Source: Halomarina pelagica
GTDB taxonomy: Archaea > Halobacteriota > Halobacteria > Halobacteriales > Haloarculaceae
Assembly: GCF_024228315.1 (NCBI RefSeq)
Contig: NZ_CP100457.1
Location: forward strand, 1-64,000
Length of the DNA stretch: 64,000 bases
Direction of reading: 5' to 3'
Shown: positions 7,172-48,557 of the stretch, one piece after another
Layout: each line of letters starts with the position of its first letter
How positions within the stretch are numbered: the first letter of the stretch is position 1
Notes under the pieces: generated by a model
Database searches by the model: none
What the model was told of the DNA's origin: nothing
What the model saw: the letters and a program-made list of their open reading frames with translations, nothing else
Position numbers and translations under genes: made by a program

Positions 7172-8252
7172 GTGGTTTCCATCGGAAGTGGTATCCTCGG
7201 AGCGCAGACCGTGAACAACTTCGCGGTCGTGTTTGTCTGGGCGGTCTGGTTAAAGGGCATCGCGCTCGTGTCGATACTTATCGGAAGTCCCTGGCGGGTG
7301 CTCTCACCGTGGCGGACGCTATATCATGTGACCTGTGCGGTCGAAGGGGACGAGACATGCCTTATCGAGTATCCAGATCGCCTCGGTACTTGGCCTGCGC
7401 TCGTGTCGTACGTCATCGCTGTTGGCGTTATCGAGAATTTGACCGTCATACCTCGTTCTCCCGCACTAACTGCTTGGCTGCTCATCAGCTACACGCTTCT
7501 GATGTATCTCGGGAGCCTCCTGTTCGGTCCTGCGTGGTTCAGAAATGCCGATTTCTTCGAAGTACTGTATCGTTTGCTTGGTCGAGTCGCGCTGATCCAC
7601 CCCCACCGTTCTGAGAAGGGAGGATATACAGCCTCGACGAGAGCTCCCTGGTGGGACTGTACGCGTCCGATCACCGGCCTCACACTCATCGCGTTCGTTA
7701 TCGCGACGGTCTATACGGTCAGTTTCGATGGGTTTGCCAGTACTCTCACGTTCCAATCAGTTCTGTTTGCAACTCGCAACCTCCTGGCCGTGGGACCGAC
7801 AGTAAGCGTGTTGCTCTACCTACTCGGGTATGGATTATTTGTGGTAGCGTTCGGTATCATTGTTATCGTTACTGGACGAATCGGCTTCACATCGCCGCCT
7901 CGCTGCCTCCGTGGTCGCGCCGACGATTCTCCCGATCGCTGCAGCCTACGAATTCGCCCACAACTACCCCTACGTCATCGAGAACACGGGAAAGACTGTG
8001 ACCGTCATCGCTGGTTGGTTCAATACTATCATCGTTGTTGATCCGCTAAGCTGGCTCTCGCTTGCCGTATTCTGGGGGACACAGGTGCTCCTCATCATTG
8101 CTGGCCACGTTATCGCTGTCGTCGCAGCCCACAATGTCATCGCTGAACGGACGTCGCAAAGATCGGTCCTCGTTCCCCATCTACCTCTGACGGTACTCAT
8201 GATCAGCTACACCATGCTCTCGCTCTGGATCATCTCTCGGCCGGTTGCATAA
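7172..8252 (+). pseudogene. Family B membrane protein, frameshifted and N-truncated
   Basis: This matches the intact paralogue at 11434-12855 but is damaged. The open frame from 7172 starts at the equivalent of about residue 115 of the intact protein. It carries the conserved motif SPWRVLSPWRTLY (intact copy: NPWPALNPWRTI). Between about 7885 and 7905 the frame is lost. The C-terminal part continues in another frame (LAASVVAPTILP...SYTMLSLWIISRPVA) to the stop at 8250-8252. About 20 residues of the intact sequence are also missing at the junction. It is probably non-functional, unless the two halves assemble. See 11434 for the family description. Confidence 0.75.
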
Positions 8253-8330
8253 CCGTTGCTTCGTTTATCACTCCCTCTGGCTGATTTCCGAAACCTGTTT
8301 GATCACCCCGTTCGAACCGACGCTGAAATC

Positions 8331-9500: not shown

Positions 9501-9582
9501 TCCCGGTATACGTCGACGTAGATCGTAATCAAGCGCCCGTTTTCCCCCGATCGATTCGAGCCGTTACCTGAATTGAGGCGCT

Positions 9583-9630
9583 AAGGCCCCTTCCTCAACG
9601 AGCGGCGAAGCCACGAGTAGGGAGGGGATA
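9583..9630 (+). ncRNA. Remnant of a TnpB right end / omega-RNA 3' hairpin
   Basis: The stem CCCCTTCC (9587-9594) pairs with GGGAGGGG (9620-9627) around a loop containing ACGAGCGGCGAAGCC. Its layout resembles the hairpin at the end of the complete element (11082-11125). I read it as the right end of an older IS1341-type element whose body has been lost, with the present element inserted beside it. Homology to the omega-RNA (sense overlapping transcript) is inferred from shape and position only. Confidence 0.4.
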
Positions 9631-9636
9631 CAGCGT

Positions 9637-9698
9637 CCCCAGAACGCTTCGCGTTCTGGGGTGCGGACGAGACGCTTTGCGTCTCGTCAACGCCGCAC
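9637..9698. repeat. Stacked perfect hairpins at the TnpB element left end
   Basis: The first hairpin is CCCCAGAACGC (9637-9647), loop TTC, GCGTTCTGGGG (9651-9661). The second is GACGAGACGC (9666-9675), loop TTT, GCGTCTCGTC (9679-9688). The second is enclosed by GTGCGG (9661-9666) and CCGCAC (9693-9698). IS200/IS605 elements are recognised through subterminal hairpins, so these probably mark the left end. They could also act as transcription terminators between units. Confidence 0.55.
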
Positions 9699-9785
9699 GC
9701 TATTCATACACTGTTCGACGGCAGGCCCACAGGCCCACCGTATGCTGTCAGTATCTTTATGGAGTATCGTATGTATCATACTCAT

Positions 9786-9908
9786 GTGGCAACGCGCAAG
9801 AACATCACCGTCCGCGACGACCAAGCCGAGTGGATTCTGGAGAATCACTTGAACCTCTCCCGATTCGTCCAAGACAAATTGGACGAACTCATCGAAGAAC
9901 GCTCGTGA
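9786..9908 (+). CDS. 40-residue ribbon-helix-helix-like protein coupled to TnpB
   Basis: GTG start, 40 residues: a short basic beta-strand-like start (ATRKNITVRDDQ) then two helices (EWILENHLNLSRFVQDKL, DELIEE). The layout resembles a minimal ribbon-helix-helix (CopG/Arc-type) unit. Its TGA stop overlaps the GTG start of tnpB (GTGA, 9905-9908), so translation is coupled. I recall similar short reading frames before other haloarchaeal IS1341-type tnpB genes. A role in autoregulating the element or its guide RNA is plausible but inferred. Confidence 0.65.
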   Translation: MATRKNITVRDDQAEWILENHLNLSRFVQDKLDELIEERS

Positions 9909-11128
9909 ACTACAACTACAGGTATCGACTCATCCCGTCCGACGCCCTCGCAGAGCGGTTAGCGTGGACTGTCGATACCTGTAGGCAGGTCTACAACCAC
10001 TTCCTTCACCGCCTCAACCGCACCGACGGCACTTCGGCATACAGCGAACAAAAGCTTCTGCCGAGCCTCAAGAAGTGGTGGAACGACCTGAAGAGCGTCC
10101 ACTCAAAGGTTCTCCAGAAAGTCGTTCAACGGCTGTACGACAACCTCTCGACGCTCCGGGGGCGCAAAGAGAACGGCTCACGCGTCGGGACGCTCAAGTG
10201 GAAGGCACCGGACGAGTACCGCAGTTTCACCTACAGTCAATCTGGCTTCAAGCTCAAGAACACGAGCGGTCGGACGCGACTGTGGCTCTCGAAGTTCGGT
10301 GAGATACCTATCACCTTCCACCGCGACCTGCCCGACAACGCCGAAATCAAAACTGTCACAGTCAAGCAGGAACCGACCGGGAAGTGGTACGCTATCCTTG
10401 GCATCGAAACCCCGAACGACCCACCCGCGAAACCAGAGAATCCCGAGCAGTGCGTCGGTATCGACGTGGGGATGCTCAAGTACGCCCACGACACCGATGG
10501 AACCGCCGTCGAATCGCTCGACCTGTCCGATGAACGCGAGCAGTTGGAACGCGCACAGTGTAACCTCTCGCGGAAGGAACATGGCTCTGCGAATTGGGAG
10601 AAACAGCGCCGCATCGTGGCTGAACGTCACGCGGACCTCAAGCGGAAGCGCCGTGACTTCTTGCACAAGCTCTCGAACTACTACGCCCGCAAGTACGATT
10701 TCGTGGCCGTGGAGGACTTGGACGCGAAAGGGTTGGTCGAACTACCGGGCAACTCACGGAACCGCACTGGTGCGGCATGGGGAACGTTCCTCCGGATGCT
10801 TGAGTACAAATGCAAGCGCGAGGGGACGCACTTCGTCACCGTGAATCCGAGAGGAACGACCAAAGAGTGCGCGTCCTGTGGCGTTTCGACCGAGAAACCG
10901 TTGTGGGTCCGTGAACACTCGTGCCCGGCGTGTGGGTTTGAGGCGGATAGAGATGCGAACGCGGCGTGGAACATCCTTTCTCGCGGTATCACAAAGCGGT
11001 TAGGAGCGGGACGCTCCGAATCAACGCTGCGCTCCCTGTGGATACACCTGTATCTGCAAAGCGCGTCGTGGAAACAGGAAGCCCCACCCTCACGCGCGAG
11101 CCGTCAGGTGAGCGGTAGAGTGGGGTAG
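9905..11128 (+). CDS. tnpB: TnpB RNA-guided nuclease of IS1341-type element
   Basis: The ancestor-type Cas12 nuclease encoded by IS200/IS605 elements. It cleaves DNA guided by an RNA made from the element's 3' end. The start is a GTG at 9905 overlapping the upstream short gene; the translation begins VNYNYRYRLIPSD, the usual haloarchaeal N-terminus. The split RuvC acids are all present: Asp in GIDVGMLKYA, Glu in VAVEDLDAKGL, Asp in DRDANAAWN. The zinc finger has its four cysteines (CASC and CPAC). The N-terminal helix-turn region and WED-like segments look complete. The 407 residues match active family members, and the C-terminal tail overlaps the 3' hairpin. Probably catalytically competent, unlike the other mobile genes here. 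Confidence 0.88.
   Translation: MNYNYRYRLIPSDALAERLAWTVDTCRQVYNHFLHRLNRTDGTSAYSEQKLLPSLKKWWNDLKSVHSKVLQKVVQRLYDNLSTLRGRKENGSRVGTLKWKAPDEYRSFTYSQSGFKLKNTSGRTRLWLSKFGEIPITFHRDLPDNAEIKTVTVKQEPTGKWYAILGIETPNDPPAKPENPEQCVGIDVGMLKYAHDTDGTAVESLDLSDEREQLERAQCNLSRKEHGSANWEKQRRIVAERHADLKRKRRDFLHKLSNYYARKYDFVAVEDLDAKGLVELPGNSRNRTGAAWGTFLRMLEYKCKREGTHFVTVNPRGTTKECASCGVSTEKPLWVREHSCPACGFEADRDANAAWNILSRGITKRLGAGRSESTLRSLWIHLYLQSASWKQEAPPSRASRQVSGRVG
11082..11125 (+). ncRNA. Putative omega-RNA 3' hairpin overlapping the tnpB end
   Basis: CCCCAC (11082-11087) pairs with GTGGGG (11120-11125), and CTCAC (11089-11093) with GTGAG (11108-11112), enclosing GCGCGAGCCGTCAG. It overlaps the last codons of tnpB. In IS200/IS605 elements the scaffold RNA covers the tnpB 3' end and the guide begins just outside the right end. 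The 5' boundary of the RNA cannot be seen from sequence. Confidence 0.5.
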
Positions 11129-11169
11129 TTCACGAGGAGTTATGCTACTGCACCTCGTGATGCGATGTG

Positions 11170-11301
11170 ATGTGTATCTATTGCGATCAAGTACGCGAGG
11201 AACTAGAAGAGCACGAAGAACCCTCTAGCGAACCATCTGAGCGAACTCAACACTCTCATTCGCTGTGGGAGCGTATTACACAGGCTCTTCGGGATATCTG
11301 A
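11170..11301 (+). CDS. MCIYC-type 43-residue Cys-x2-Cys protein
   Basis: It begins MCIYCDQVREELEEHEE: a single Cys-x2-Cys at the very N-terminus, then an acidic middle and a short C-terminal amphipathic helix (LWERITQALRDI). One Cys pair suggests metal binding as a dimer or with a partner. A shortened homologue (MCIYCDAYEEEPRE) lies at 46288-46353, again shortly upstream of a family B membrane protein, so the two are probably functionally linked. There are 123 bases before the start of the family B gene on the same strand. Function unknown. Confidence 0.6.
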   Translation: MCIYCDQVREELEEHEEPSSEPSERTQHSHSLWERITQALRDI

Positions 11302-11433
11302 GTCGTAGCACTGCTGCTTGTTGGTGGTGACACGTCTCTTTTCGTCCTCCAACCCCCGTGACCCAGACATAGATTTCTGTCGTGGAGAACCAAGGCGATA
11401 GATACAATTCGGTGTCCAAACGATGTGCAGAAG

Positions 11434-12855
11434 ATGCCTGCTGATACCCCGTCGTGGCACGTACACTGTCGGCGGCTCGTTTATCTCGTGTTGGGGCTAT
11501 CTCTCTTAGTAACGATTGTCGACACCGTCGCGGCGAGTAATGCCGCAGTGAGTCTCTCGAATACAGGTGCAAGCCGAGATAGACTAGATGTCCCGCGCTG
11601 GTTGTATCTTCTCACCGGAGGATCAACGATCGGTGCATCAGCGCTTCTAGCAAGCGTCGTTACTGATCGAGGCTTTATCGAAGGTATACACGACTGGAGA
11701 CTCTCTGTTCCTACTCGTGCCGGTCTTAAACGCAGTGTGATCGTCGTCTCTCAGCTTATCGGGGTCATCGCCTTGGGTTACATCGTTTGGCGGGGTTTAG
11801 TTGGTCCTCAGGTCCCAACGGTGAACGCAGCGATCATTCTTGTGTTCGCCGGTGTGCGCGCGGGCCTTACGATGGTTACCTATCTTATAGGAAATCCTTG
11901 GCCTGCACTCAACCCATGGCGCACGATCGCGGAGTGGCTTCCGACCCTCGATCGGTCGTATCCCGCGTCGATAGGCCATTGGCCCGCAGTTATTGGCTTC
12001 CTAGTCCTCGTCTGGATCGAGACGACGACAGCCGTGAATACACTTCCACGCACGCTCTCACTTACGCTGCTCGGATACACTGGTATCACGCTCGGCGGAG
12101 CACTTGTGTTCTCCCCAGATACCTGGTTCCAAAATGTCGATCCCGTCTCTGCTTTCTTTCGATTCTATGGTGCCGTTTCCCCAATTCAGTGGAGTGACGA
12201 TGGATTCAGGGTACAACTTCATGGATTTGCTCTGCCGGAGTCTGATATCGTTTCAGGGCTCGACGACGTTGCGTTCGTCATCGCCCTCGTTTGGGAGTTG
12301 ACCTTCACTGGGTTCGTCACGACGACAGTGGGTGCCGCCGCCGTCAGTATACTCGTTCGCAGTGGTGTCCCCGCACTTGCGGTCTATGCCGTGATTTTTG
12401 TGGGTGGATATGCTGTCTTCCTGGGAGCATATTTAGTCGCTACGCGACGCTCTTGGCGTGTCGCAGAAACGTACCTCTCGGAACGCACCCTCGCACTACG
12501 ATTCGCGCTCCCGTTACTCGCGATCGCCGCTGGGTATCACCTTGCGCATTACTTCGCCTTCTTCGTCTCGCTCTCTCTCCCGGTCATACAAGTCATTCAG
12601 AGTCCCCTCTCACCGCCTTCAAACCCACTCGTCCTTACACTCCCGTGGTGGTTCGGTGGGTTAAATATCGCCTTCGTCCTCGTCGGTCACCTACTTGCAA
12701 TCTGGCTCGCACACGCGATTGCCTATGCGACCTTTCCGTCGAGAATGCAGGCCATTAAGAGCCAATATCCATTCGTCATTGTGATGATCGGATACACGAT
12801 CACGAGCCTTTGGTTGATTTCACTACCGACGGCGTCCCCTGCGTTCCTAGGATAG
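11434..12855 (+). CDS. Family B polytopic membrane protein (intact copy)
   Basis: 473 residues and about twelve predicted transmembrane helices. Conserved features across the three copies here are a Gly-Asn/Ser-Pro-Trp...Pro-Trp-Arg-Thr motif (GNPWPALNPWRTI, around residue 150), a DTWFQNVDP loop, a His-rich helix (AGYHLAHYFAF), a GHLLAIWLAH helix, and a C-terminal SYTMLSLWIIS-like helix. The paired Trp motif reminds me of actinobacterial membrane proteins labelled fenitrothion hydrolase, but I cannot verify that and would not transfer the name. Its neighbours are a CxxC mini-protein upstream and cytochrome oxidase genes downstream. Paired His residues in helices would suit metal or heme handling. 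The ATG at 11434 is preferred over a GTG nine bases upstream. Confidence 0.75.
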   Translation: MPADTPSWHVHCRRLVYLVLGLSLLVTIVDTVAASNAAVSLSNTGASRDRLDVPRWLYLLTGGSTIGASALLASVVTDRGFIEGIHDWRLSVPTRAGLKRSVIVVSQLIGVIALGYIVWRGLVGPQVPTVNAAIILVFAGVRAGLTMVTYLIGNPWPALNPWRTIAEWLPTLDRSYPASIGHWPAVIGFLVLVWIETTTAVNTLPRTLSLTLLGYTGITLGGALVFSPDTWFQNVDPVSAFFRFYGAVSPIQWSDDGFRVQLHGFALPESDIVSGLDDVAFVIALVWELTFTGFVTTTVGAAAVSILVRSGVPALAVYAVIFVGGYAVFLGAYLVATRRSWRVAETYLSERTLALRFALPLLAIAAGYHLAHYFAFFVSLSLPVIQVIQSPLSPPSNPLVLTLPWWFGGLNIAFVLVGHLLAIWLAHAIAYATFPSRMQAIKSQYPFVIVMIGYTITSLWLISLPTASPAFLG

Positions 12856-13109: not shown

Positions 13110-13376
13110 CTACTGCGTGGTCTTTGGATCAAAGCGCGAGGCTGTATGGACGAGGCCGAGCAGTGTACCGAGGATAATCGTCATAGCGATTATTCCATAG
13201 AGTGCCATCTTTGCCGGAGTCGGGTGAAACTGGAGCATCCAAAGTCCAACGGTGGCTGAATTTGGGAGCAAGGCCCCTACGTAGAGTCCGAAGCCGCCTG
13301 CGATCGGGATGACGAGGGAGAACGCCAGTAGGATGGTTCGTCGACCAGATCGAGACCCAGTTGGAGCATCGCCCAT
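13110..13376 (-). CDS. Family D two-helix membrane protein
   Basis: 88 residues with two transmembrane helices. The start is fixed by comparison: this copy begins MGDAPTGSRSGRR and the copy at 45963 begins MGDAVHTRSGKR. The 44 in-frame residues upstream of the ATG at 13376 have no counterpart and are not counted. Both proteins share a short extracytoplasmic segment ending FxPTPxxMALYG at the start of helix 2. The gene lies two genes from cytochrome oxidase subunit I (14049); the other copy sits among cox-cluster-like genes, so a role in oxidase assembly is possible. Function unknown. Confidence 0.65.
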   Translation of the reverse strand: MGDAPTGSRSGRRTILLAFSLVIPIAGGFGLYVGALLPNSATVGLWMLQFHPTPAKMALYGIIAMTIILGTLLGLVHTASRFDPKTTQ

Positions 13377-13545
13377 ATCAAACCCAAGAGTGGGGGTGTT
13401 CAAATCGCTTCTCACTCGCCCCGTTCCATCTCCTGATTCATTACTCGTCGATAGCTCTTCATTTGGGATGCCTCTACCTCGTACGGGAGTAACGCTGTAT
13501 ACTTCCATTAGCGGGTAATCAGCCGATAAAGGTCGTGTAGAGTAA

Positions 13546-38381: not shown

Positions 38382-39353
38382 ATGACCAACACGAAACTAA
38401 CCCTCGATAACGGCCGCAAAGATGAACGACAATCGACCGCCGAGTCCCAGCAGCGATCATCCTGTCCGGAGTGTGGCGGCAAGGTCGTCCACGACGAGGA
38501 ACACGGTGAACAAACCTGTGAAGAGTGTGGCCTCGTGCTCGACGACGCGTCTATTGACCGGGGACCGGAGTGGCGGGCGTTCTATAGCGACGAAGAAGAC
38601 GAGAAGAGCCGCGTCGGGGCGCCGACGACACAGCTCATGCACGACAAGGGGCTCAGTACGACGATCAGCTGGCAGGATAAAGACGCCTACGGCCAGTCGG
38701 TATCCAATCGCAAGCGAGCCCGCCTGCAGCGTCTTCGTACGTGGGACGAACGGTTCCGGACGAAAGACGCCCACGAGCGGAATCTCAAGCAAGCACTCGG
38801 CGAAATCAGTCGGATGGCATCTGCCCTCGACGTCCCAGACCCAGTTCGGGAGACAGCAGGGGCGATCTATCGGCGGGCAGTCAAGGACGATCTCCTTCCC
38901 GGTCGGTCGATCGAAGGTATGGCGACGGCGTCGCTGTACGCTGCAGCCCGACAGCACGGGACGCCACGGCCGCTCTCGGAGTTCGCCGAAGTCAGTCGCG
39001 TGGAAAAGATCCGTATCCAGCGGGCCTATCGATATGCATCCCGGGAACTCGGATTAGAAATCGAACCTGCCGATCCACTAGAGTATGTTCCGCAGTTCGC
39101 GTCAGCACTGGACGTGAGTGACGAGGCGACACGCCAAGCACGAGACTTGCTTACGACGGCAATGGAAGCGGGTGCCCATAGTGGGAAGAGTCCTGCAGGC
39201 CTTGCTGCGGCCGCGATCTACGCCGCGACGCACCTCACGAATGAGCAGTTGACACAGGAAACAGTCAGCAAAGCGGCCCACGTGAGCAAGGTGACGATTC
39301 GGAATCGCTACCAAGAACTGCTCGACGTCTACGCCGAGGAGGGCTATGCGTGA
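38382..39353 (+). CDS. tfb: Transcription initiation factor TFB
   Basis: An archaeal TFIIB homologue that bridges TBP-bound promoter and RNA polymerase, 323 residues. The N-terminal zinc ribbon is intact (CPECGG... CEECGLV). The B-reader/linker region follows (DRGPEWRAFYSDEE, SRVGAP), then two cyclin-fold repeats (about 125-215 and 220-315) with a helix-turn-helix in each (GMATASLYAAARQHG; KAAHVSKVTIRNRYQEL). Haloarchaea use multiple TFBs for stress and metal responses, so this accessory copy could direct genes of this island. The stop overlaps the next gene's start (TGATG), so they are coupled. Confidence 0.95.
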   Translation: MTNTKLTLDNGRKDERQSTAESQQRSSCPECGGKVVHDEEHGEQTCEECGLVLDDASIDRGPEWRAFYSDEEDEKSRVGAPTTQLMHDKGLSTTISWQDKDAYGQSVSNRKRARLQRLRTWDERFRTKDAHERNLKQALGEISRMASALDVPDPVRETAGAIYRRAVKDDLLPGRSIEGMATASLYAAARQHGTPRPLSEFAEVSRVEKIRIQRAYRYASRELGLEIEPADPLEYVPQFASALDVSDEATRQARDLLTTAMEAGAHSGKSPAGLAAAAIYAATHLTNEQLTQETVSKAAHVSKVTIRNRYQELLDVYAEEGYA

Positions 39354-39643
39354 TGAGCGATCCAGCGCAGCGACGCCGAGAGAAATCAACTGCGAACATG
39401 CGAGCAGAAGAAATAATGAGTGAACTCAACCGCGAAACCGACCGAGAGATTCTCGACATTCTCGTCACGAACGCACCGCTCCGTGTGATGGATATCGCCA
39501 AAATTGCGGATCGCCATCCGATCACGGTCGATCAGACCTGCGCTCGGCTACATGAGCAAGGACACATCTCTCCACTCGGACGAGGGCTCTATGATGTTAC
39601 TGACGACGGAATACGACACCTTGAGAATATTGATGGCACATGA
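39353..39643 (+). CDS. Winged-helix regulator coupled to TFB
   Basis: 96 residues. A winged helix runs from about residue 28: ETDREILDILVTNAPLRVMD, then IADRHPITVDQTCARLHEQG as the recognition helix, and a wing ending GLYDVTDDGIRHL. No ligand domain. Its ATG overlaps the TFB stop. Coupling suggests that it modulates the same promoters. Similar proteins in haloarchaea are annotated only as DNA-binding. Confidence 0.7.
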   Translation: MSDPAQRRREKSTANMRAEEIMSELNRETDREILDILVTNAPLRVMDIAKIADRHPITVDQTCARLHEQGHISPLGRGLYDVTDDGIRHLENIDGT

Positions 39644-39737
39644 GTTCGCGAGGAATTTCTCACTTCCGCTGAAATCTCACGTAGTCAGATGAGTCTGAAT
39701 CGGATTGTATATCCCGCGTATCTCCCAAACTCAGATA

Positions 39738-40115
39738 ATGGTGAGCGATCCAGCGTCATCTCGGGACTCTCCCTCGTTGCAAGACGTCCTCGATGCGTTG
39801 GATGACGCCGACTGTCGGGCCATCCTCCGAGAAACAGCTGAACCTATGACCGCAAACGAACTCATCGACGCCTGTGACATCCCCAAATCGACGTTGTACC
39901 GAAAACTGGAGCTCCTCAGTGAGGCCTCGCTCGTCCGTGAACAGGACATAATCAACCCTGGTGGAGGCCGAACCACGAAATACAAACGCGACTTCGATGA
40001 CGTAACGATCTCAATGGACGACGAGGATAACTTCTCGGTGACGGTCGAACGACCACCACGGAAAGCTGACGAACGCCTCGCCGACATCTGGTCGAAGATG
40101 GGAGACGAACTATGA
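39738..40115 (+). CDS. Winged-helix transcriptional regulator (ArsR-like)
   Basis: 125 residues from ATG at 39738. The helix-turn-helix is AILRETAEPMTANELIDACD, then IPKSTLYRKLELLSEASLV as recognition helix, with the wing near GGRTTKYKRDFDDVTI. The acidic C-terminal half binds no obvious ligand. It overlaps the next membrane gene by four bases (ATGA), forming a two-gene regulator/membrane-protein unit that recurs in haloarchaea as far as I recall. Confidence 0.72.
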   Translation: MVSDPASSRDSPSLQDVLDALDDADCRAILRETAEPMTANELIDACDIPKSTLYRKLELLSEASLVREQDIINPGGGRTTKYKRDFDDVTISMDDEDNFSVTVERPPRKADERLADIWSKMGDEL

Positions 40116-40393
40116 CGTGGACCGGCACTGCAATCGTCGTCGTGAAGACGGTGATACTGCTGCTGGGGAGCGGTATCACGTTTATCGCCTACAAAGCTTA
40201 TCGGCGGACTGGGGCCGCTTCACTCCGCGCTCTCGGTGTCGGATTCGGAATTATCACGTTCGGGGCGCTACTGGCAGGTATTGCGAATCAAATTCTCTCC
40301 GTCTCTCTCGAGATGGGTGTCTTGATCAATAGCATTCTCGTCGCGATCGGACTCGCGATCATCCTGTATTCACTCTATCTCGAACGCGAGTGA
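40112..40393 (+). CDS. Three-helix membrane protein paired with the HTH regulator
   Basis: 93 residues with three transmembrane helices and few polar loops (ITFIAYKAYRRTG; ends ILYSLYLERE). The start overlaps the upstream regulator stop. It may anchor or sense for that regulator; no catalytic residues are visible. Confidence 0.65.
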   Translation: MTWTGTAIVVVKTVILLLGSGITFIAYKAYRRTGAASLRALGVGFGIITFGALLAGIANQILSVSLEMGVLINSILVAIGLAIILYSLYLERE

Positions 40394-40478
40394 AGCACCG
40401 AATCGGGCCGTCGCTCAGTATTCCCGACTCGGACCCAAGTAACAAACAGATTTACCCGAGGCGAACGAATTCGGTAAT

Positions 40479-40747
40479 ATGACCGACGCAGGTACGTCCT
40501 ATCCGGTCGATACGAAGGCGTTGGGAATGGCTGTCGGGACGTTCTAGTCGGCAGCCGTCGTATTCATCGGCATTCGTTCGTATTTCAGTTGGGGAGAACG
40601 ATGGGAGCGACTGTTCGAGGACTTGTATCCCGGGTACAATACCGGACTGTAGGTCTCGCTACCAGAGCAGTCTGGGCCTTCTGTGACGGATTTGTCGATG
40701 CGTACGTCATCGAAACGCTGTACAACCGATTCGCTACCGAACCGTAG
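40479..40747 (+). pseudogene. Small holin-like haloarchaeal membrane protein, broken
   Basis: The frame from ATG at 40479 reads YPVDTKALGMAVGTF, an in-frame TAG at 40545-40547, then SAAVVFIGIRSYFSWGERW... LYPGY. After a frame change near 40648 it reads ATRAVWAFCDGFVDAYVIET and LYNRFATEP, then stop. The joined sequence matches the short two-helix proteins annotated in haloarchaea as bacteriophage holins (DTKAL..., LYPGY, ALWGFVDGF, LYNRF pattern). Two lesions, inactive. Confidence 0.62.
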
Positions 40748-40916
40748 TTCGGGCGCTCTCTACGAGGACACGTAGCCGACTCCAAGTCGTTTCGGCAAGC
40801 AACGAGTACAGTTCTTCGTGCCCTCGTTTCGTCCCGCGGCCAACACGAATGGCGACCACATCGTCCTGAGTTTCGTCGAGTACATCGTACAATTCCGGGG
40901 CAGGTGCTCTAGTCAT
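40734..40916 (-). pseudogene. Truncated SpoIIAA/STAS-like protein
   Basis: 60 residues beginning ELYDVLDETQDDVVAIRVG and GHEELYSLLAETT, the start of a SpoIIAA-like domain (a cytosolic fold of about 120 residues). The second half is replaced by an unrelated basic tail and a stop that overlaps the end of the holin-like pseudogene. It starts four bases after the CDF stop, so it once formed the end of that operon. Confidence 0.5.
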
Positions 40917-40919
40917 TGG

Positions 40920-41849
40920 TCAATGCGTGTGCCCCGTTCGATCAGCGTGTGTCGCGTCCGAGGTGAGGGATTCCGTCAGCTCGATCGTCGCATGGTCGAT
41001 GCCTCGCTCTGTCAGGCTGGCATGTACACGGGATCGAATGGCCTCACGCTCCTCGATCGTGGTCGCCAAATCGACGAGACGCACCGTCCCAACGGTAAGC
41101 TGGCTGCACACCTGCCAGACGTGGAGATCGTCGACGCGCTCGACGCCATCGATCCCTGTGAGTTCGTTCCGCAGATCGGTCGGATCGATCGGGCTCCGTT
41201 CGAGGAGAATCGTCGTGCTTTCGCGGAGCACCTTCCCGGCCGACCACAGAATTAGCACTCCGATGAGGACCGCTGCAGCGGGGTCAGCCACGGGAAGATC
41301 CAACACCGCCACGGCTAGTGTCGAAATGATGACTGCAACCGATCCACTGGCGTCACCGAGCAGGTGATAGAACGCACCGCGTTCATTGAGACTCATTTCA
41401 CCGCCCTGGAGGATATAGACCGAGCCGATATTGACGAGCAGGCCGCCAGTCGCAACGACGAGCGTCAGTACCGGATCGATATCGACCGGATTGAGAAACC
41501 GCTGGTATGACTCCCAGAGGATGTACCCGACCATCGGCAAGAGGAGGATGCCGTTAAGGAAGGCGGCGACCGGCTCGAGTCGATGTAGCCCGTAGGACCA
41601 CGCCTCGCCGCCCTCGAAGCGTTCGGCGGTATAGCTTGCGCCGAACGCCATCGCATACGCGAGCATGTCGAACAGCATGTGGAGCGCGTCGCTAATGAGG
41701 GCGACCGACCCGAACAGGAGCCCGCCAGCCAACTCCACGACGAAGCCGACGAAGTTGACGACGGCGACGAGTGCTAATCGTCGCGTACTCCCATCTGAAT
41801 TGGGAGTCGGTTCAGCCTCGGCGCCGTGGTCGTGATCGGAGAGGGACAT
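40920..41849 (-). CDS. CDF-family Zn/Cd exporter, copy 2, site intact
   Basis: Cation diffusion facilitator of 309 residues with six helices and a C-terminal cytosolic domain. Helix 2 has DALHMLFD and helix 5 has FYHLLGDASGS, the two His-x3-Asp sites that form the zinc transport centre. The cytosolic domain keeps DLHVWQVCSQLTVG. The His-rich N-terminus (SDHDHG) and C-terminus (HADRTGHTH) are typical. It is last of the ATPase-RPLD-CDF operon, 47 bases after the RPLD gene. Compared with 19240-20139 this is the functional-looking paralogue. It exports zinc or cadmium using the proton gradient; specificity is inferred. Confidence 0.92.
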   Translation of the reverse strand: MSLSDHDHGAEAEPTPNSDGSTRRLALVAVVNFVGFVVELAGGLLFGSVALISDALHMLFDMLAYAMAFGASYTAERFEGGEAWSYGLHRLEPVAAFLNGILLLPMVGYILWESYQRFLNPVDIDPVLTLVVATGGLLVNIGSVYILQGGEMSLNERGAFYHLLGDASGSVAVIISTLAVAVLDLPVADPAAAVLIGVLILWSAGKVLRESTTILLERSPIDPTDLRNELTGIDGVERVDDLHVWQVCSQLTVGTVRLVDLATTIEEREAIRSRVHASLTERGIDHATIELTESLTSDATHADRTGHTH

Positions 41850-41896
41850 GGTAACTCGAAGAGGGTTTCGGAGAGCAGTCAGTACTGTGGTTTAGT

Positions 41897-42331
41897 CTAC
41901 CCAGCGTCTGCTGTTGGATCGGTTTCGGTCGACCGCTCCTTGGTCGCATCCGGTCGTTTAGTGTCTGTCGCAGCATCTGATCCTGAATTGGATGCTTCTT
42001 CGTCGATCGATTCTTCATCCTCATCTGCAGAGGCATCCTCAGCGTCTGTATCGGGGAGGGACGTGTCGTGGCCGGACGACCCGATGAGATCGAGAGGACG
42101 AATCCAGATGAACCACACGACGAAAACGGTCGTCCCGTACCCTACGATCCAGACGAGATCTGCTATGCCCGACAGGTTCGATGTTTCCAAGAAGTAGACG
42201 ACAAGACCTGGCGTGATCAGGCCCACGAGAACGACGAAGAAAAACAGTTGATACGACGATAGACCGAACGGGTACTGGCGGTACTCGGCCTCGCCTCCGC
42301 CGTCGTCGCTCGAATTAGATGATTGACCCAT
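41897..42331 (-). CDS. RPLD two-helix membrane protein of the ATPase-CDF cassette, copy 2
   Basis: 144 residues. A polar N-terminus of about 28 residues, two helices (about 28-45, 57-75), the shared WFIWIRPLDLIG motif, and a C-terminal tail of about 65 residues with more than 20 Asp/Glu. It lies 12 bases after the ATPase stop and 47 before the CDF start. Its only relative in the window is 18905-19243, in the same position. The tail differs in length but is acidic in both. Function unknown. Conservation of position across two diverged cassettes argues for a functional link to the exporters. Confidence 0.82.
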   Translation of the reverse strand: MGQSSNSSDDGGGEAEYRQYPFGLSSYQLFFFVVLVGLITPGLVVYFLETSNLSGIADLVWIVGYGTTVFVVWFIWIRPLDLIGSSGHDTSLPDTDAEDASADEDEESIDEEASNSGSDAATDTKRPDATKERSTETDPTADAG

Positions 42332-42343
42332 TACTTTAGATGC

Positions 42344-44995
42344 TCACGAATTGACAGCGTCAGACTCGCCACCCGTCTTCGGTTTGATGCGGGAGAGCCG
42401 CATCGCGTTGCCGGTCACACCGACCGTCATACCGGCGTCCCCCGCGAGGACGGCCAACCAGATGGGCACGTATCCAAACGGGACGGCCAGGGCGAGGCCG
42501 GCCTTGACCGCCAGACTCGCCCAGATGTTCTGGCGGATGACGCCGTTTGCGTCGTTCGCGAGTTCGTAGAGGTAGGGAAGTTTCGCGAGGTCGTCGCCCA
42601 TCAGGGCGATGTCAGCCGTTTCGAGGGCCGTGTCCGTCCCGGCGGCGCCCATTGCGACGCCGACCGTGGCGGTGGCGAGGGCGGGCGCGTCGTTGATGCC
42701 GTCGCCGACCATCGCCACGCCGTCGTACTCGTCGACGAGCTCGTCGATGGCATCGACCTTCTCCTCGGGGAGGAGTTCCGCCCGGTAGTCGTCGACGCCG
42801 ACCTGCTCGGCGATCGCTCGTGCGGTCCGCTCGTTGTCGCCCGTGAGCATCACCGTCCGCTTGACGCCGAGCTCTTTCATTCGGCGCACCGCGTGCTTGG
42901 CCTCGGGCCGGACTTCGTCGGCGACGCCGATGATCCCCTCGAGTTCGTCCTCGGTGCCGACGAGGACGACGGTCTTGCCCTCCGCCTGGAGGTCAGGCAC
43001 CGTGTCCTCGAGGAGGTCGAGGCAGTTGTTGCGTTCGCACAGTTGCTGTGCAGTTTGGGTGACGACGCCACCATCAGTCGTCGCGTGGACGTGCGAGAGG
43101 TCGAAGCCGAGCTCCTCGAAGAGACCAGGCTTGCCGGCGAAGTGGGGCGTTCCGTCGAGGTCGGCGCGGACACCCTTGCCTGTGATGCTCTCGAACTCCT
43201 CGATTTCCCGCTCGGCGACGCCAGCTGCGCCTGCCTCCGCGACGATGGCTTCGCCGATGGGATGCTCACTGCGCTGTTCGAGTCCCCGGGCACACCGGAG
43301 GACGTCGTCCTCAGTGTTGCCATTCAGCGGAACGACATTGGTGACGGTGAGCTCACCCTTCGTCAGGGTTCCTGTCTTGTCGAACGCGACGACGTCGACC
43401 GCACCCATCGCCTCTAGATGGTTGCCGCCCTTGATGAGGACGCCGTTCTTCGCGGCGCTCGTGATCCCGGAGACGACGGAAACAGGCGTCGAGATGACGA
43501 ACGCGCACGGACAGGCGAGTACGAGCAGCGTCAGGCCGTAGACGACGGCCGTCGACCACGTCGTCCCCATGATGTAGGGACTGCCTAGGGTGACGAGGAC
43601 GGCGAACGCGACGACGACCGGCGTGTAGTACGCCGAGAAGCGCTCGACGAACTGCTCGCGTTCAGTCTTGTTCGCCTGCGCGTCCTCGACCATCTCGACG
43701 ATGCGGGAGAGCGTGTTGTCGCCTGCCTCCGAAGTGACCTCCACTTCCAGGTAGCCCTCCTCGTTAATCGTGCCGGCGTACACCTCGTCACCCTCCGTCT
43801 TGTCGACGGGCACGCTCTCGCCCGTGATGGGGGCCTGGTTCACCGCGCTCTCGCCGTCGACGACGTCACCGTCCATTGGGATCTTCTCTCCAGGTCTGAC
43901 GACCACGATGTCACCGACCGCAACTTCGTCGACTGGGATCGTCTCCTCGGTTCCGTTCCGTTTAACGGTCGCCTCGTCCGGGGAGAGGTCCATCAGCTCC
44001 TGCAGCGAGTTGCGTGCACGATCCATCGAGGAGCGCTCAAGGAGTTCCGCGATGCTGAAGAGGAACGCGAGCGTGGCGGCTTCGAAGTAGAGGGCTTCGC
44101 CGAACGCGAGGCTCGCGACGAGCGCCCCGAGGATGGCGATCGACATCAGGAAGTCAATATCGAGATTCAGATTGCGGGCGGAGTAGTAGCCATTCCGGAG
44201 GATTTCCTGGCCGCCAATGGCGATGGCGATCAGGAATAGCACGTCTGCGACAAGGAGTTCACTCCCGAGGAGGCTCGCGACCTGGGCGTTCTGTCCGAGG
44301 AGGGCGAATTCGAAGAGGAGTCCGAGTGCGACGAAGCCACCGCTGATCCACGTCTTGATTGCACGTGGACTCATCCAGATACTCTCCTGTGTATCGAGAT
44401 CGTCGCTGCCTCCAGCGCCATCAGCGGTTGTGTTTGTGACCTCGTAGCCCGCACTCTCGATGGCAGAGACAATATCAGACTCAGTCACGGTCGTCGAGTC
44501 GTACGTGACAGCAACCTTCCCGGTCGTGGGCTGCGGATCAGTCATCGACACGCCGGCGAGGCCGTCAAGCGCATTCTCAACCTTGCCAGCACACGAGGGA
44601 CAGTCCATCTCCGGAACGGTGAACTTCGCCGTGATCTCTCCGGAATTTTCGACGCTGTACCCTGCTTTCTCAACGCGGTCGGCGATGGCATCTGCCGTCG
44701 TCTGGTCGTCCTCGTAGGAAACGGTGAGCGTCCCCGTCGTCACCTGTGGGTCGACGTCGTTGATTCCGTCGATCTTCCGGATGCTGTTCTCGACTTTCCC
44801 GGCACAGGACGGGCAGTCCATTTCGGGGACCGAGAACTGTGCGACGTCACCCTCGTCTATTGTCGTCGAGTTCGGTTTGTCGTCTCCGTGACCATGATCG
44901 TGGTCGTGATTGTGACTGTGATCATGGTCATGGTCATGATCGTGCGAGTGGGATCCCTCACAAGAGCCGTGTGAATCCCTGTTTGACGAGGTCAT
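42344..44995 (-). CDS. P1B-type Zn/Cd-exporting ATPase (ZntA-like), copy 2
   Basis: 883 residues, close relative of 16246-18867. The N-terminus is strikingly rich in His/Asp (about residues 10-40, alternating His-Asp), then two heavy-metal-associated domains, each with MDCPSCAGK. The core has TGES, CPC at 495-497, DKTGTLT at Asp 539, SEHP, TGDN, GDGINDAPA. The last helices have Lys in AVKAGLALAV and Asp in LAGDAGMTVG, the P1B-2 (Zn/Cd/Pb) signature. The two pumps differ mainly in the N-terminal His tail and the soluble domain. It is first gene of the second cassette, with a promoter resembling that of copy 1. Confidence 0.93.
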   Translation of the reverse strand: MTSSNRDSHGSCEGSHSHDHDHDHDHSHNHDHDHGHGDDKPNSTTIDEGDVAQFSVPEMDCPSCAGKVENSIRKIDGINDVDPQVTTGTLTVSYEDDQTTADAIADRVEKAGYSVENSGEITAKFTVPEMDCPSCAGKVENALDGLAGVSMTDPQPTTGKVAVTYDSTTVTESDIVSAIESAGYEVTNTTADGAGGSDDLDTQESIWMSPRAIKTWISGGFVALGLLFEFALLGQNAQVASLLGSELLVADVLFLIAIAIGGQEILRNGYYSARNLNLDIDFLMSIAILGALVASLAFGEALYFEAATLAFLFSIAELLERSSMDRARNSLQELMDLSPDEATVKRNGTEETIPVDEVAVGDIVVVRPGEKIPMDGDVVDGESAVNQAPITGESVPVDKTEGDEVYAGTINEEGYLEVEVTSEAGDNTLSRIVEMVEDAQANKTEREQFVERFSAYYTPVVVAFAVLVTLGSPYIMGTTWSTAVVYGLTLLVLACPCAFVISTPVSVVSGITSAAKNGVLIKGGNHLEAMGAVDVVAFDKTGTLTKGELTVTNVVPLNGNTEDDVLRCARGLEQRSEHPIGEAIVAEAGAAGVAEREIEEFESITGKGVRADLDGTPHFAGKPGLFEELGFDLSHVHATTDGGVVTQTAQQLCERNNCLDLLEDTVPDLQAEGKTVVLVGTEDELEGIIGVADEVRPEAKHAVRRMKELGVKRTVMLTGDNERTARAIAEQVGVDDYRAELLPEEKVDAIDELVDEYDGVAMVGDGINDAPALATATVGVAMGAAGTDTALETADIALMGDDLAKLPYLYELANDANGVIRQNIWASLAVKAGLALAVPFGYVPIWLAVLAGDAGMTVGVTGNAMRLSRIKPKTGGESDAVNS

Positions 44996-45016
44996 TGACG
45001 AACGCTAGGCTATCGG

Positions 45017-45056
45017 GTTTTATTAAATTGGCTGCTATGAAACGGCCCATAACTAG
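45017..45056 (-). promoter_or_regulatory. Promoter and upstream box of the second ATPase cassette
   Basis: Minus strand: CTAGTTATGGGCC (45056-45044), then CAGCCAATTTAATAAAAC (45034-45017), about 22 bases before the ATG at 44995. It corresponds base for base, with few differences, to the element before 16246. The AT-rich core at that distance indicates a leaderless transcript. The upstream box is six bases from the TATA block here and sixteen in the other copy. Confidence 0.6.
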
Positions 45057-45132
45057 CTACAGTTAACAAAAATTCAGGACTTAGTTATTAACTATCCATT
45101 CCCGGCGCTTGACTATGCTTTCGAGAGTTCGA

Positions 45133-45321
45133 TCAGCTGTGGCTCGCTCGATATTCGCCGTGTTTGACTCCGATGACGACCGACAGCACGCCGAACACCA
45201 AGAGGCCGACGCTAACCATCGCAACAGTACTCGTACTCATGGGACTCATCGCCGTACCGCCAACGATGACGGCGAATAGGATGATGAAAGCGATCGCAGT
45301 CGTTGTGGTATTGAACTTCAT
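45133..45321 (-). CDS. Small two-helix membrane protein (cox-cluster type)
   Basis: 62 residues. Two helices (about 7-24 and 32-50) and the C-terminus VIGVKHGEYRAS. Proteins ending GVKHGEYRA occur in haloarchaeal oxidase clusters in my recollection. It lies 24 bases after 45346 on the same strand, so the two are probably co-transcribed. Function unknown. Confidence 0.62.
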   Translation of the reverse strand: MKFNTTTTAIAFIILFAVIVGGTAMSPMSTSTVAMVSVGLLVFGVLSVVIGVKHGEYRASHS

Positions 45322-45345
45322 GTATGGCTACTCCGTAGTGTAGTC

Positions 45346-45750
45346 TCAATCGGATGTCGCTTCTGATGACTCAGTTATCGAGGGCGTCTCTTGAGTACGT
45401 GTCCGAACGAATCCCGCCCAAAGGAGTACGCCCAGAAGACAGAGGCCCCCGGCGATGACGATTGACTGTCCACGAACCGTCGTTCCGGTCTGGTTCTGAA
45501 CTATCAACGCGATCCCGATCCCGATTAGCGCGAGTCCTTGGGAACCAGCTGCCAGTGTGGGTCGAGAGATGTATCCTGACTCCGTGAGGATCCCAGTAAC
45601 CGACCCCACGAACAACAGAAGCCCCGCGACAGACACGGGTCGAAGCCCGAGGACGACGCCGACTTCCGAGATCGCCAAGCCAAGTGCAACGAAGAGCGGC
45701 CACGGACTCCCTCCTGTGTACGAGGAACTGGTGTCGGATTCTTCGCTCAT
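45346..45750 (-). CDS. Four-helix cox-cluster-type membrane protein
   Basis: 134 residues and four hydrophobic helices. The N-terminus TGGSPWPLFVALGLAISEVGVVLG is characteristic of haloarchaeal proteins labelled cox cluster protein. The polar C-terminal tail is acidic. It stands with 45133 and family D (45963), although the oxidase gene itself is 30 kb away beside the other family D gene. This suggests that an oxidase cluster was split by rearrangement. Assembly role inferred. Confidence 0.65.
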   Translation of the reverse strand: MSEESDTSSSYTGGSPWPLFVALGLAISEVGVVLGLRPVSVAGLLLFVGSVTGILTESGYISRPTLAAGSQGLALIGIGIALIVQNQTGTTVRGQSIVIAGGLCLLGVLLWAGFVRTRTQETPSITESSEATSD

Positions 45751-45962
45751 AGATAAGTGGAGATCAATGTCTCACCTATCAATGGTGCCTGTTGGTTGCG
45801 ACTTCTGATTCGGTCGACCATTATCGGACATACGGCTACGAATACAATAATCCGACTGCTACTAGATGGGGCGGTTCTACCAAAATATGCTATTTCTGCC
45901 GCCATTAGTTAATAACACAGTTCGAACAGAGGGTTCTTACGCTACGTGACTTGCCTAAAGGC

Positions 45963-46223
45963 ATGGGAGATGCCGTACACACACGGAGTGGTAAGCGGGT
46001 CTTTGGGGCAGTCGTCCTCATCAGAATCATAGTCGGCGCTGTGCTCGGATTGATTATCGGAACAAGTTCGAAGATTCAGCATCTCTCGGTCGGTGATATC
46101 GTGCTCTTTCGCCCGACACCGACGAGTATGGCGCTCTATGGGGCAACAGCTGCTACCGTGGGACTCACGGTGCTTCTTGGTATCGTGATTGGTCTCTCTC
46201 GATCTGACCAATCAGCGGCCTGA
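45963..46223 (+). CDS. Family D two-helix membrane protein, second copy
   Basis: 86 residues from ATG at 45963 (MGDAVHTRSGKR). Two helices flank a segment ending FRPTPTSMALYG. See 13110-13376 for the paralogue and the shared start. The MCIYC-type gene follows after 64 bases, as a neighbour of family B in both places. Confidence 0.65.
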   Translation: MGDAVHTRSGKRVFGAVVLIRIIVGAVLGLIIGTSSKIQHLSVGDIVLFRPTPTSMALYGATAATVGLTVLLGIVIGLSRSDQSAA

Positions 46224-46287
46224 TTCTCCGTCATACCTTGGGTTACTGTCGCGTGGTTTTATACGGCTACACTGTCACCGCTTTTCC

Positions 46288-46353
46288 ATGTGCATCTACT
46301 GCGACGCCTACGAAGAAGAACCCCGTGAGGGGGTAGAGTCAGACCTCAGCTGA
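46288..46353 (+). pseudogene. Shortened MCIYC-type CxxC protein
   Basis: 21 residues, MCIYCDAYEEEPREGVESDLS, then TGA. The first ten residues match the 43-residue protein at 11170. The C-terminal helix of that protein is missing, so this copy is probably truncated, in line with the damaged family B copy downstream. Confidence 0.45.
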
Positions 46354-46556
46354 ACACAATCGCTCTGATAGAGATGCAACAGTCCAGCCGTCAAACGGAA
46401 TTCTTGCGCAGATTCGTTCCTCAGTAGCGGGCCTGTTCTAATTGACAGTCTCCGTATGGTGGCGACGTCCAGTGGTTCGATAGTGGGTGGAGAGGTTCGA
46501 ACTAGAACGATTTCAAATACGAGCCCGCTAGCTCTTCCTAACAGCTACTGATCGTG

Positions 46557-46958
46557 ATGTCGCAAATACGGACTACCATACCTAGGACTGAAAGACCCGC
46601 AGGCGCGTGTGAGTATTGCGGGCAGCCGTTTCCAACCAGCGAGCGTCTCGTGCTCCACAAGGGGGTAGACCATTACCAGCAGTTCGATGACTCCGAACGA
46701 GAGGCATTCGAGGCGGCATACACAAGCGAGGAGGATGACCTCCGAGCCCTCCTCACGACACAGAACTGGTACCTACATCACCGCTCGGACGATTGCGTTT
46801 CAGTTTGCGCCACCACTCCTCGCGATTACAGCTGGATATCACCTAGCTCACTATGCCGGACTACTTGTGTCCCTCAGCCCGGCACTGATGATGGCACTCA
46901 CCTCACCACTGTCCCCACCAGCGAATCTGCTGGTTCTTTCTGTACCGTCTTGGTTTGA
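46557..46958 (+). CDS. C2H2 zinc-finger protein truncated and fused by a deletion
   Basis: The first ~65 residues are a normal small haloarchaeal zinc-finger protein: CEYCGQPFPTSERLVLHKGVDH is a C2H2 finger, followed by an acidic helix (SEREAFEAAYTSEEDDLRALL). Related proteins continue with a transmembrane helix. Here the frame runs instead into out-of-frame family B sequence (from about 46766) and ends in a meaningless tail at 46958. The finger may still fold, but membrane attachment is lost. Confidence 0.6.
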   Translation: MSQIRTTIPRTERPAGACEYCGQPFPTSERLVLHKGVDHYQQFDDSEREAFEAAYTSEEDDLRALLTTQNWYLHHRSDDCVSVCATTPRDYSWISPSSLCRTTCVPQPGTDDGTHLTTVPTSESAGSFCTVLV

Positions 46959-47157
46959 GGGACTAGGTATCGCGTTCGTGCTCATCGGGCATCTCCTTGC
47001 GATCTGGGCGGCGCACGCGGTTGTGTACGATCTTTTTTCTAATCGGCTCGTCGCGATTCAGAGCCAGTACCCGTTCGTCGCGGTGATGATCGGATACACG
47101 GTTATTAGCCTCTGGATCATCTCCCTCCCTGGAGCAATTCCACTATACCTGTCCTAA
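46766..47157 (+). pseudogene. Family B membrane protein, C-terminal quarter only
   Basis: From about 46766 the frame reads TYITARTIAFQFAPPLLAIT, then AGYHLAHYAG, FVLIGHLLAIWAAHAVVYD and IGYTVISLWIISLPG to the stop at 47155-47157. It aligns with the last ~130 residues of the intact 11434-12855 protein. The N-terminal ~350 residues have been deleted together with the 3' part of the zinc-finger gene. Confidence 0.78.
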
Positions 47158-47241
47158 TTGCCGCTGAAACTTGCTTTCGAGTTTGCTCGCTGATACCCAA
47201 CCAAGATAGGTGAGTTCGAACGTTCGGGTAGATCCAAATTT

Positions 47242-48309
47242 TCACACAGTGAACTCGATTGGTGGCATATCGAGAAAGGCAGTCTCGTATCCGTCGTGTC
47301 GTGCGAGCTGGGGCGGCGTCTGTACGGTAATCGTGACTGAGTCGCCTACCTTGATCTTCGGAATGGACGTCCCGTAATAACAGCTAATCTCTGGATCGAG
47401 TGATGCCCGAAGCGGTCCCTGAAAAACCGTTTTCTGTCCGCGTTCCACGGTCGCCGAGAGCGCCATCCGGGGGAGAACGACACGATTGTACGGCGTTCGC
47501 GGTGAGACGATCATGTACGGACGATCACCATCTCCAAAGCGAGTTCCCGCCTCGACAACGGAGACAAAGAAGGTCGCGTCACCAGAGGAACCGTCACCGA
47601 TCAGTCGACCGGGAAGATTGCCCTTCCGTGGCGCCAGGGGTTCGGGCATCATTTGCATCTCCATCAGGTCGACAGTTCCTCGAGTCCCTGCCTTCTCTCC
47701 CAACCGTCGATACTCGAGATTGTACGTTTCACTCGTATCGAAGGTGAAGCTCATCGTCGCCGATTGTGCCTCCGTGAATCGGCCTTCGAACGGCTCCGTT
47801 CGATCGGTCTGAAGCGGCCCGACGCGAAGGGTAACGTCATACTGTCCCTCCCCCGGAAGTCCGACGTTGTCTCCGTAGTGAAAGCCCATGTTTGGCGAGA
47901 TCATCGGCCACAAATTGGTGCTGGTTACCTGGCCGTCGGCGTTGCTGATCTCCGCGGAGATATCGATCGGCAGGATCGTGTTCGTCTCCACGTCCCAGAC
48001 GCTCGCCATGAGATGGAGGGAATCACTGGATCGAACGACGACCTTCGTCTTGTTCGTCCCAGTTAGGTTCCAGAACCGGTGCGGGAACGAGTGCATCAGT
48101 GCAAATCCGACATCGCCGGCTGTCGTCGTCCCGTACATCCCCATCCCTTCGACAATCGCCGGATAATAGACGGCATCAGGCCTGTTCTGAACGAGCGGGG
48201 GATCCCGCCACGCAGATTGTGTCTCGAAGCCGAGACTGCTGAGACAGCCTGCAGTCATCAGTCCGCCTGTAATGGCGACACTCTGTTTCAATACCGTTCG
48301 TCGATTCAT
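47242..48309 (-). CDS. Tat-exported P19-like iron/copper-binding lipoprotein, copy 2
   Basis: 355 residues. Tat signal plus lipobox (RRTVLKQSVAITGG... TAGCLSS). The first domain (about 40-190) resembles periplasmic P19/Tp34-type iron transport proteins (PF10634): RPDAVYYPAIVEGMGM, SFPHRFWNLTGTNKTKV, SDSLHLMASVWDVET, GFHYGDNVGLPG. Met and His of such blocks bind copper and iron in characterised members. A second domain of ~150 residues (PYMIVSPRTPYNRVVLPRMAL) resembles itself in copy 1 and is unknown to me. It is last gene of the DyP-P19-P19 cluster. Role in extracellular iron capture or reduction is inferred. Confidence 0.78.
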   Translation of the reverse strand: MNRRTVLKQSVAITGGLMTAGCLSSLGFETQSAWRDPPLVQNRPDAVYYPAIVEGMGMYGTTTAGDVGFALMHSFPHRFWNLTGTNKTKVVVRSSDSLHLMASVWDVETNTILPIDISAEISNADGQVTSTNLWPMISPNMGFHYGDNVGLPGEGQYDVTLRVGPLQTDRTEPFEGRFTEAQSATMSFTFDTSETYNLEYRRLGEKAGTRGTVDLMEMQMMPEPLAPRKGNLPGRLIGDGSSGDATFFVSVVEAGTRFGDGDRPYMIVSPRTPYNRVVLPRMALSATVERGQKTVFQGPLRASLDPEISCYYGTSIPKIKVGDSVTITVQTPPQLARHDGYETAFLDMPPIEFTV

Positions 48310-48431
48310 ATTATGACCACCTATTGACTAAGTGGAAGTGAGCATCGACACTGGCCGGCTTCTCCTCAGAGTCCTCTTGTTGGTTCGCTATGTGGGTAGC
48401 TACGTGGTGTCCAGTGGACATGCGAATCTCT

Positions 48432-48518
48432 CTACGCCAATCGTACCACGAAACCCGTGAGTACCAGCAGCGTGACGACTCCGAGAAGGGCGCCCAGCAC
48501 GAGGTGTTTCTCTTCCAT
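48432..48518 (-). CDS. 28-residue single-helix peptide in the P19 cluster
   Basis: MEEKHLVLGALLG then a hydrophobic helix ending TGFVVRLA, encoded in the 248-base gap between the two P19-like genes on the same strand. It has a clean charge pattern (acidic/basic start, hydrophobic core, Arg end) as in small membrane subunits. Small size makes it uncertain. Confidence 0.4.
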   Translation of the reverse strand: MEEKHLVLGALLGVVTLLVLTGFVVRLA

Positions 48519-48557
48519 ATCATAGCTTGCGAATACGCATCCAAATACTCCGTGGAA

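Follow-up and report, generated by a model that had tools for sequence, protein, structure and literature searches.

The first 64,000 nucleotides of contig NZ_CP100457.1 of the haloarchaeon Halomarina pelagica (assembly GCF_024228315.1; this stretch, part of a 144,667-base contig, is hereafter the window) carry two copies of a small gene, here called the mini-gene, whose product begins with MCIYC, and each copy lies upstream of a gene for an uncharacterised membrane protein, family B, or its remnant (Table 1). As the initial annotation had described, a 43-residue protein precedes an intact family B gene at one locus, and at 46288 a shortened MCIYC protein precedes a truncated family B gene. 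The open reading frame (ORF) of copy 2 owes its shortness to a frameshift: the mini-family profile matches the beginning of the gene in one frame and continues in another. Downstream of it the start of a DUF7410 gene is followed by the end of a family B gene, and therefore a deletion has joined the two remnants. Positions 38964-50910 hold a second, diverged copy of a whole pNG600-type cassette on the same contig as copy 1, encoding TFB, a helix-turn-helix protein, a CDF exporter, an ATPase, DUF7541, lipoproteins and DUF7405. DUF7410 is absent beside copy 1, and its only match in the window is the one at copy 2. An in-frame GTG at 11167 allows one extra residue in the copy 1 product.

Table 1 Features of the two loci and their surroundings in the window
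Feature	Position	Strand	Description or basis
IS200/IS605-type element with tnpB	9568-11133	+	sequence; ends are the limits of similarity to other genomic copies
TATA-like GTTATGC	11140-11146	+	~30 nt 5' of copy 1 ATG; aligned to TTTTATA of other mini-genes
Mini-gene copy 1	11170-11301	+	ORF; 43-aa acidic micro-protein MCIYCDQVREELEEHEEPSSEPSERTQHSHSLWERITQALRDI, N-terminal MCIYCD, possible C-terminal amphipathic helix (model)
Family B membrane protein, intact, 476 aa	11425-12855	+	ORF; downstream of copy 1
Zn/Cd/Pb-type P-ATPase of the cassette	42344-44995	-	scores over TIGR01525 and TIGR01512 cut-offs
Promoter box GTGGTTTTATA of mini-gene copy 2	46253-46263	+	alignment with other mini-genes
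Mini-gene copy 2	46288-46438	+	frameshifted relative of 49-aa gene; 21-aa ORF 46288-46353 (MCIYCDAYEEEPREGVESDLS), remainder in another frame
DUF7410 (C2H2) gene, N-terminal remnant	46557-46751	+	58% identity over 65 aa to L052 8512-8778; DUF7410 assignment of that family
Family B C-terminal remnant, residues 347-475	46765-47151	+	sequence match to family B
DUF7350/Iron_transport (Tp34-like) cassette lipoprotein	47242-48309	-	PF24041 and PF10634

The window has two occurrences of an 18-base MCIYCD pattern, against none in 100 dinucleotide shuffles; among 392 genomes of the order it was found in 12, at 13 places, while a reversed control pattern gave 0. A profile built without either window copy singles out exactly copy 1 (E 1.7e-6) and copy 2 (E 2.3e-7) among the 1155 ORFs of the window, the next having E 0.21, and both copies belong to the MCIYC mini-protein family by profile match and MCIYC start. 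Orthologues of 49 residues are present in the same cassette of other haloarchaea. Comparison of nine distinct orthologous coding sequences gave fewer nonsynonymous than synonymous changes per site (dN<dS) in 35 of 36 pairs, the sole exception being L108 versus L075 with few changes (dN 0.055, dS 0.030), and third codon positions are the most variable in diverged pairs. Residues M1, C2, I3, Y4 and C5 are invariant in all ten aligned mini-proteins, and a C-terminal S, R and L are nearly so. About 30 nt upstream of the ATG, the orthologues and copy 2 share TTTTATA (once TTTTATG), a leaderless-type promoter. The selection, promoter and profile evidence together rule out a chance ORF. By these comparative criteria, the mini-gene is a coding gene under purifying selection, with its own promoter box, and occurs almost only in this cassette.

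No Pfam family was found for the copy 1 mini-protein, whose AlphaFold2 (AF2) model contains helices at residues 3-14 and 25-42 at low confidence (predicted local distance difference test, pLDDT, 67.7; predicted template modelling score, pTM, 0.27). No paper treating the mini-gene came up by title or the opening of its abstract, and out of 5.39 million papers none contains any of the five DUF names, MCIYC, or the accessions or locus tags of pNG600; the available portions of silver and copper papers make no mention of such a cassette.

Distribution of the mini-gene and partners of family B

In a first profile survey of the same 392 genomes, clear members (E <1e-6) were found in 13 genomes at 14 places. 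Matches of that survey with E 2.6e-4 to 0.1, among them those in G343 and G404, were left out of the count, because those in G343 and G404 lie inside other genes and the rest did not recur with a better profile; G318 (E 0.0066 with the better profile) was dropped as well. Copy 1 is itself part of both survey profiles and the G377 member part of the second; the independent values are those from the window-free profile for copy 1 and from the first survey for G377. Together with G428 (the same place as L101), L094, L098, L108 and plasmids of Halobaculum roseum and Salinigranum rubrum, the 14 places make 20 distinct ones.

An intact family B gene lies directly downstream on the same strand at 16 of these places (copy 1, ten genomes, L094, L101, L108 and the two plasmids) and a truncated one at 1 (copy 2), such that 17 of the 20 mini-genes stand beside family B. 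In L098 the mini-gene lies ~3.3 kb upstream of family B in the same island, with CDF and DUF7541 genes between them. Family B was not found in genome G009 (L074), where a DUF7350 remnant lies just 3' of the mini-gene; a short, weak family B-like match there (29% over 86 aa) was not relied on. In G377 (L186) there is no family B match within 11.9 kb, and remnants of DUF7541, DUF7520 and DUF7410 flank the mini-gene. At all 20 places cassette genes or their remnants are found near the mini-gene, in line with the earlier expectation that MCIYC genes are not placed at random.

The pairings are not independent of one another: five of those fetched are identical at the protein level, and most of the 17 represent one cassette spread by transfer. 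The placement of the mini-gene is far from random, but it is mostly that of a single horizontally spread cassette. Loss of family B coincides with a visibly decayed cassette in L074 and L186, which agrees with part of the earlier interpretation; the mini-gene is kept at both.

Viewed from family B, the association is much looser. In a set of 80 named family B loci, the best-scoring ones out of 230, an MCIYC start lies at most 1.5 kb upstream at 7, versus 0.0 expected from 200 Markov resamplings; the pattern is found antisense upstream at 0/80 and downstream at 0/80. This count rules out the mini-gene and family B as an obligate pair. Locus L054, for example, has DUF7410 with the same preceding element but no mini-gene, and its family B protein is 92% identical to that of the mini-bearing L052. 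The single functional unit initially proposed therefore survives as a pairing that recurs in other genomes, not as a fixed two-gene unit, since family B genes elsewhere largely lack the mini-gene.

DUF7410, a C2H2-finger protein whose C-terminal tail is hydrophobic, is encoded at most 1.5 kb from family B at 69 of the 80 loci; a DUF7350/Tp34-like 'iron transporter' lipoprotein is encoded within the same distance of family B at 43, and at least one of the two at 79. The constant small CxxC partner of family B is DUF7410, not the mini-protein. In Haloferax the order, all in one direction, is lipoprotein, DUF7410, family B and Zn/Cd-type P-ATPase, and some other family B-DUF7410 pairs adjoin DUF7541, CoxI and DUF7520. 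With DUF7410 and Tp34-like lipoproteins as its regular partners, the picture of this uncharacterised protein is corrected, and a specific hypothesis of metal transport can be framed. Apart from MCIYC genes, the small CxxC ORFs found 5' of family B show no resemblance to the mini family; they include two-CxxC ORFs (MSDCPECGFALAQ...) in L095 (~700 bp) and L097 (~810 bp), from Halobacterium sp. KA-4 and Halospeciosus flavus, and a CKECG ORF in L137, while several basic or serine-rich ORFs are probably not genes.

Mini-bearing rows occupy two places in a maximum-likelihood tree built by a quick search from 84 family B sequences. In one, copy 1 is the sole mini-bearing row among 11 from Halomarina and Haladaptatus; in the other, a group of 14 rows, the mini-gene is adjacent in 8 and far in 1. 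It follows that the mini-gene met family B at least twice, or that there were many losses, or exchange.

Of 116 genomes in the taxonomic family, 92 gave a family B match. It has no Pfam, NCBIfam model or PDB sequence match, and its AF2 model (mean pLDDT 82.5) gave no convincing fold match in the PDB, with no Foldseek hit at E <= 0.001 and a best VIA-align Z of 5.0. Matches to family B from Nonomuraea and Rhizobium in the plasmid collection have no annotation under the match. H375, H422 and H430 are invariant in 28/28 sequences and H372 and H89 are retained in 27/28, with H372/H375 and H422/H430 in two predicted membrane helices (364-392 and 410-436); no Cys is conserved in at least 20 of the 28 aligned rows. 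The initial annotation had read the Cys-x2-Cys motif and His-rich helices as signs of metal or redox chemistry, and the metal part of that claim fits the clear metal gene context. Its extension to family B itself, for which the conserved His may argue, is at the level of a guess.

Genes around the mini-gene and family B loci encode Zn/Cd/Pb-type P-ATPases, CDF exporters, a ZupT-like transporter and cytochrome oxidase subunit I, as well as proteins that we read from their ORFs as halocyanin-like. A conserved element, GAACCAGAACGGTTTCA, lies shortly 5' of DUF7410 (46499-46520 in the window; L052 8455; L054 7970; L094 5582; L099 5546), both with and without a mini-gene, and may serve DUF7410-family B as promoter or operator. 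DUF7520 is encoded twice in the vicinity of the two mini/family B copies (13110-13508, minus strand; 45951-46223, plus strand), and in L094 and L186 it or a remnant of it is also found beside the mini-gene. At 7172-8258 there is a third family B-like gene, which is more distant (~31% identity), is split into two reading frames and is near a chromosomal subfamily (L036).

The IS200/IS605-type element, inserted after TTAC and with related copies or fragments elsewhere in the genome, sits immediately 5' of the promoter box of copy 1, its right end 36 bp 5' of the start codon. In studied relatives, the guide RNA of tnpB extends beyond the element's right end. If the same is true of the tnpB at 9568-11133, the guide would match the promoter region of mini-gene copy 1.

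Proposed role and competing explanations

We tentatively favour, as quite possible, a role for the mini-protein as an optional, acidic, single-CxxC micro-protein, accessory to a haloarchaeal metal cassette and engaged in cytosolic metal-thiolate handling. Members of this cassette are DUF7541, the mini-protein, DUF7410, family B, Tp34-like lipoproteins, DUF7405, a Zn/Cd/Pb-type ATPase and a CDF exporter. The mini-protein would act in the cytoplasm, where its two extreme N-terminal Cys would be the thiolate ligands of a soft metal, probably in a dimer or with a partner supplying further ligands, while the predicted C-terminal amphipathic helix could dock it to the membrane or to another protein of the cassette. 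There it would buffer, sense or hand over metal for a DUF7410-family B membrane complex, in which family B may move or hold metal via its four membrane His together with DUF7410 and the Tp34-like lipoproteins. The mini-gene would be dispensable, and could be lost without loss of the membrane complex. A bolder version, which we consider rather improbable, is that the mini-protein belongs to a class of archaeal metal-thiolate adaptors, new and marked by one CxxC, and that family B is a new kind of membrane metal carrier, which the mini-protein loads or gates and which works with membrane-anchored DUF7410 and Tp34-like surface lipoproteins.

Several observations weigh against the accessory role. 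One CxxC provides two thiols per chain only, the AF2 model of the mini-protein is of low confidence, 73 of the 80 family B loci have no mini-gene directly upstream, and the mini-gene is kept in G009 and G377 despite the loss of family B. Most pairings also belong to one lineage, so that much of the association can be put down to linked genes being inherited together. Much the same facts favour a mini-gene with a function of its own that is merely carried in the metal island, several of the shared cassettes being identical and copy 1 being the one row with a mini-gene among the 11 from Halomarina and Haladaptatus in the quick tree. We nonetheless hold such a passenger unlikely, since two distant family B backgrounds both have the mini-gene directly upstream on the same strand, the antisense and downstream controls are empty, and the other mini-proteins compared share no more than 48% identity with copy 1, which is thus no recent transfer from copy 2.

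The mini-gene has the divergent DUF7541/ATPase genes on one side and DUF7410-family B on the other, a position that would also suit a small regulator of the cassette, which would sense metal through its CxxC and control either set of genes. There is a precedent in Halobacterium, where Brz, a small zinc-finger protein, is encoded directly upstream of bop, which it regulates (PMC2253796). Family-model searches of the mini-protein recognised no DNA-binding domain, it has a single CxxC versus the two motifs of C(P)XCG proteins, and cassettes without a mini-gene (L054) retain the same element 5' of DUF7410; regulation of this kind accordingly has a low, though appreciable, probability. More remote, and in our estimate very improbable, is a leader peptide, that is, an upstream ORF whose translation rather than product controls the downstream genes. 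The mini-gene is a short first cistron with its own promoter box and a ~120-bp gap to DUF7410 in cassette A, but its product is conserved over its length, as judged from the substitution pattern and the nearly invariant C-terminal residues, L054 retains the element before DUF7410 without any leader, and in L098 the mini-gene is placed elsewhere in the island.

Relation to known systems

The mini-protein resembles the haloarchaeal C(P)XCG micro-proteins (HVO_0758, HVO_2753 and Brz) in having fewer than 70 residues and a Cys-x2-Cys motif. Those zinc-finger micro-proteins are defined by at least two such motifs (PMC11241148), whereas the mini-protein has two Cys per chain, in a single CIYC that lacks the G and stands right at the N-terminus. 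Like DUF7410 (PF24166), it is small and encoded upstream of family B in the same cassette, and C-x-Y-C is found in most aligned DUF7410 sequences; DUF7410 differs in having a pair of His ligands and, towards its C-terminus, a hydrophobic stretch. The copy 1 mini-protein does not qualify as a match to the Pfam model of DUF7410, and origin of the mini-gene as a degraded DUF7410 is unsupported, a profile comparison with hhalign giving a probability of 3.8 over 7 columns.

The lipoprotein adjoining family B matches the Tp34/P19-type 'Fe2+ transport protein' family (PF10634). A P19-like permease role for family B would be a guess, given that it has no sequence-family match. The closest counterpart of the whole cassette is the heavy-metal region of Haloarcula marismortui pNG600 (NC_006394.1, ~57.4-74.3 kb), with the same gene set and order around the mini-gene, which occupies 66201-66347 there. 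It differs in that the position of the mini-gene is empty among the listed genes, a gap also seen in the Salinigranum rubrum plasmid, as read from a PLSDB gene table that is incomplete; of six plasmid records with a mini-gene match, none lists a gene under it. With the mini-gene, known haloarchaeal plasmids gain a protein-coding gene family that had escaped annotation.
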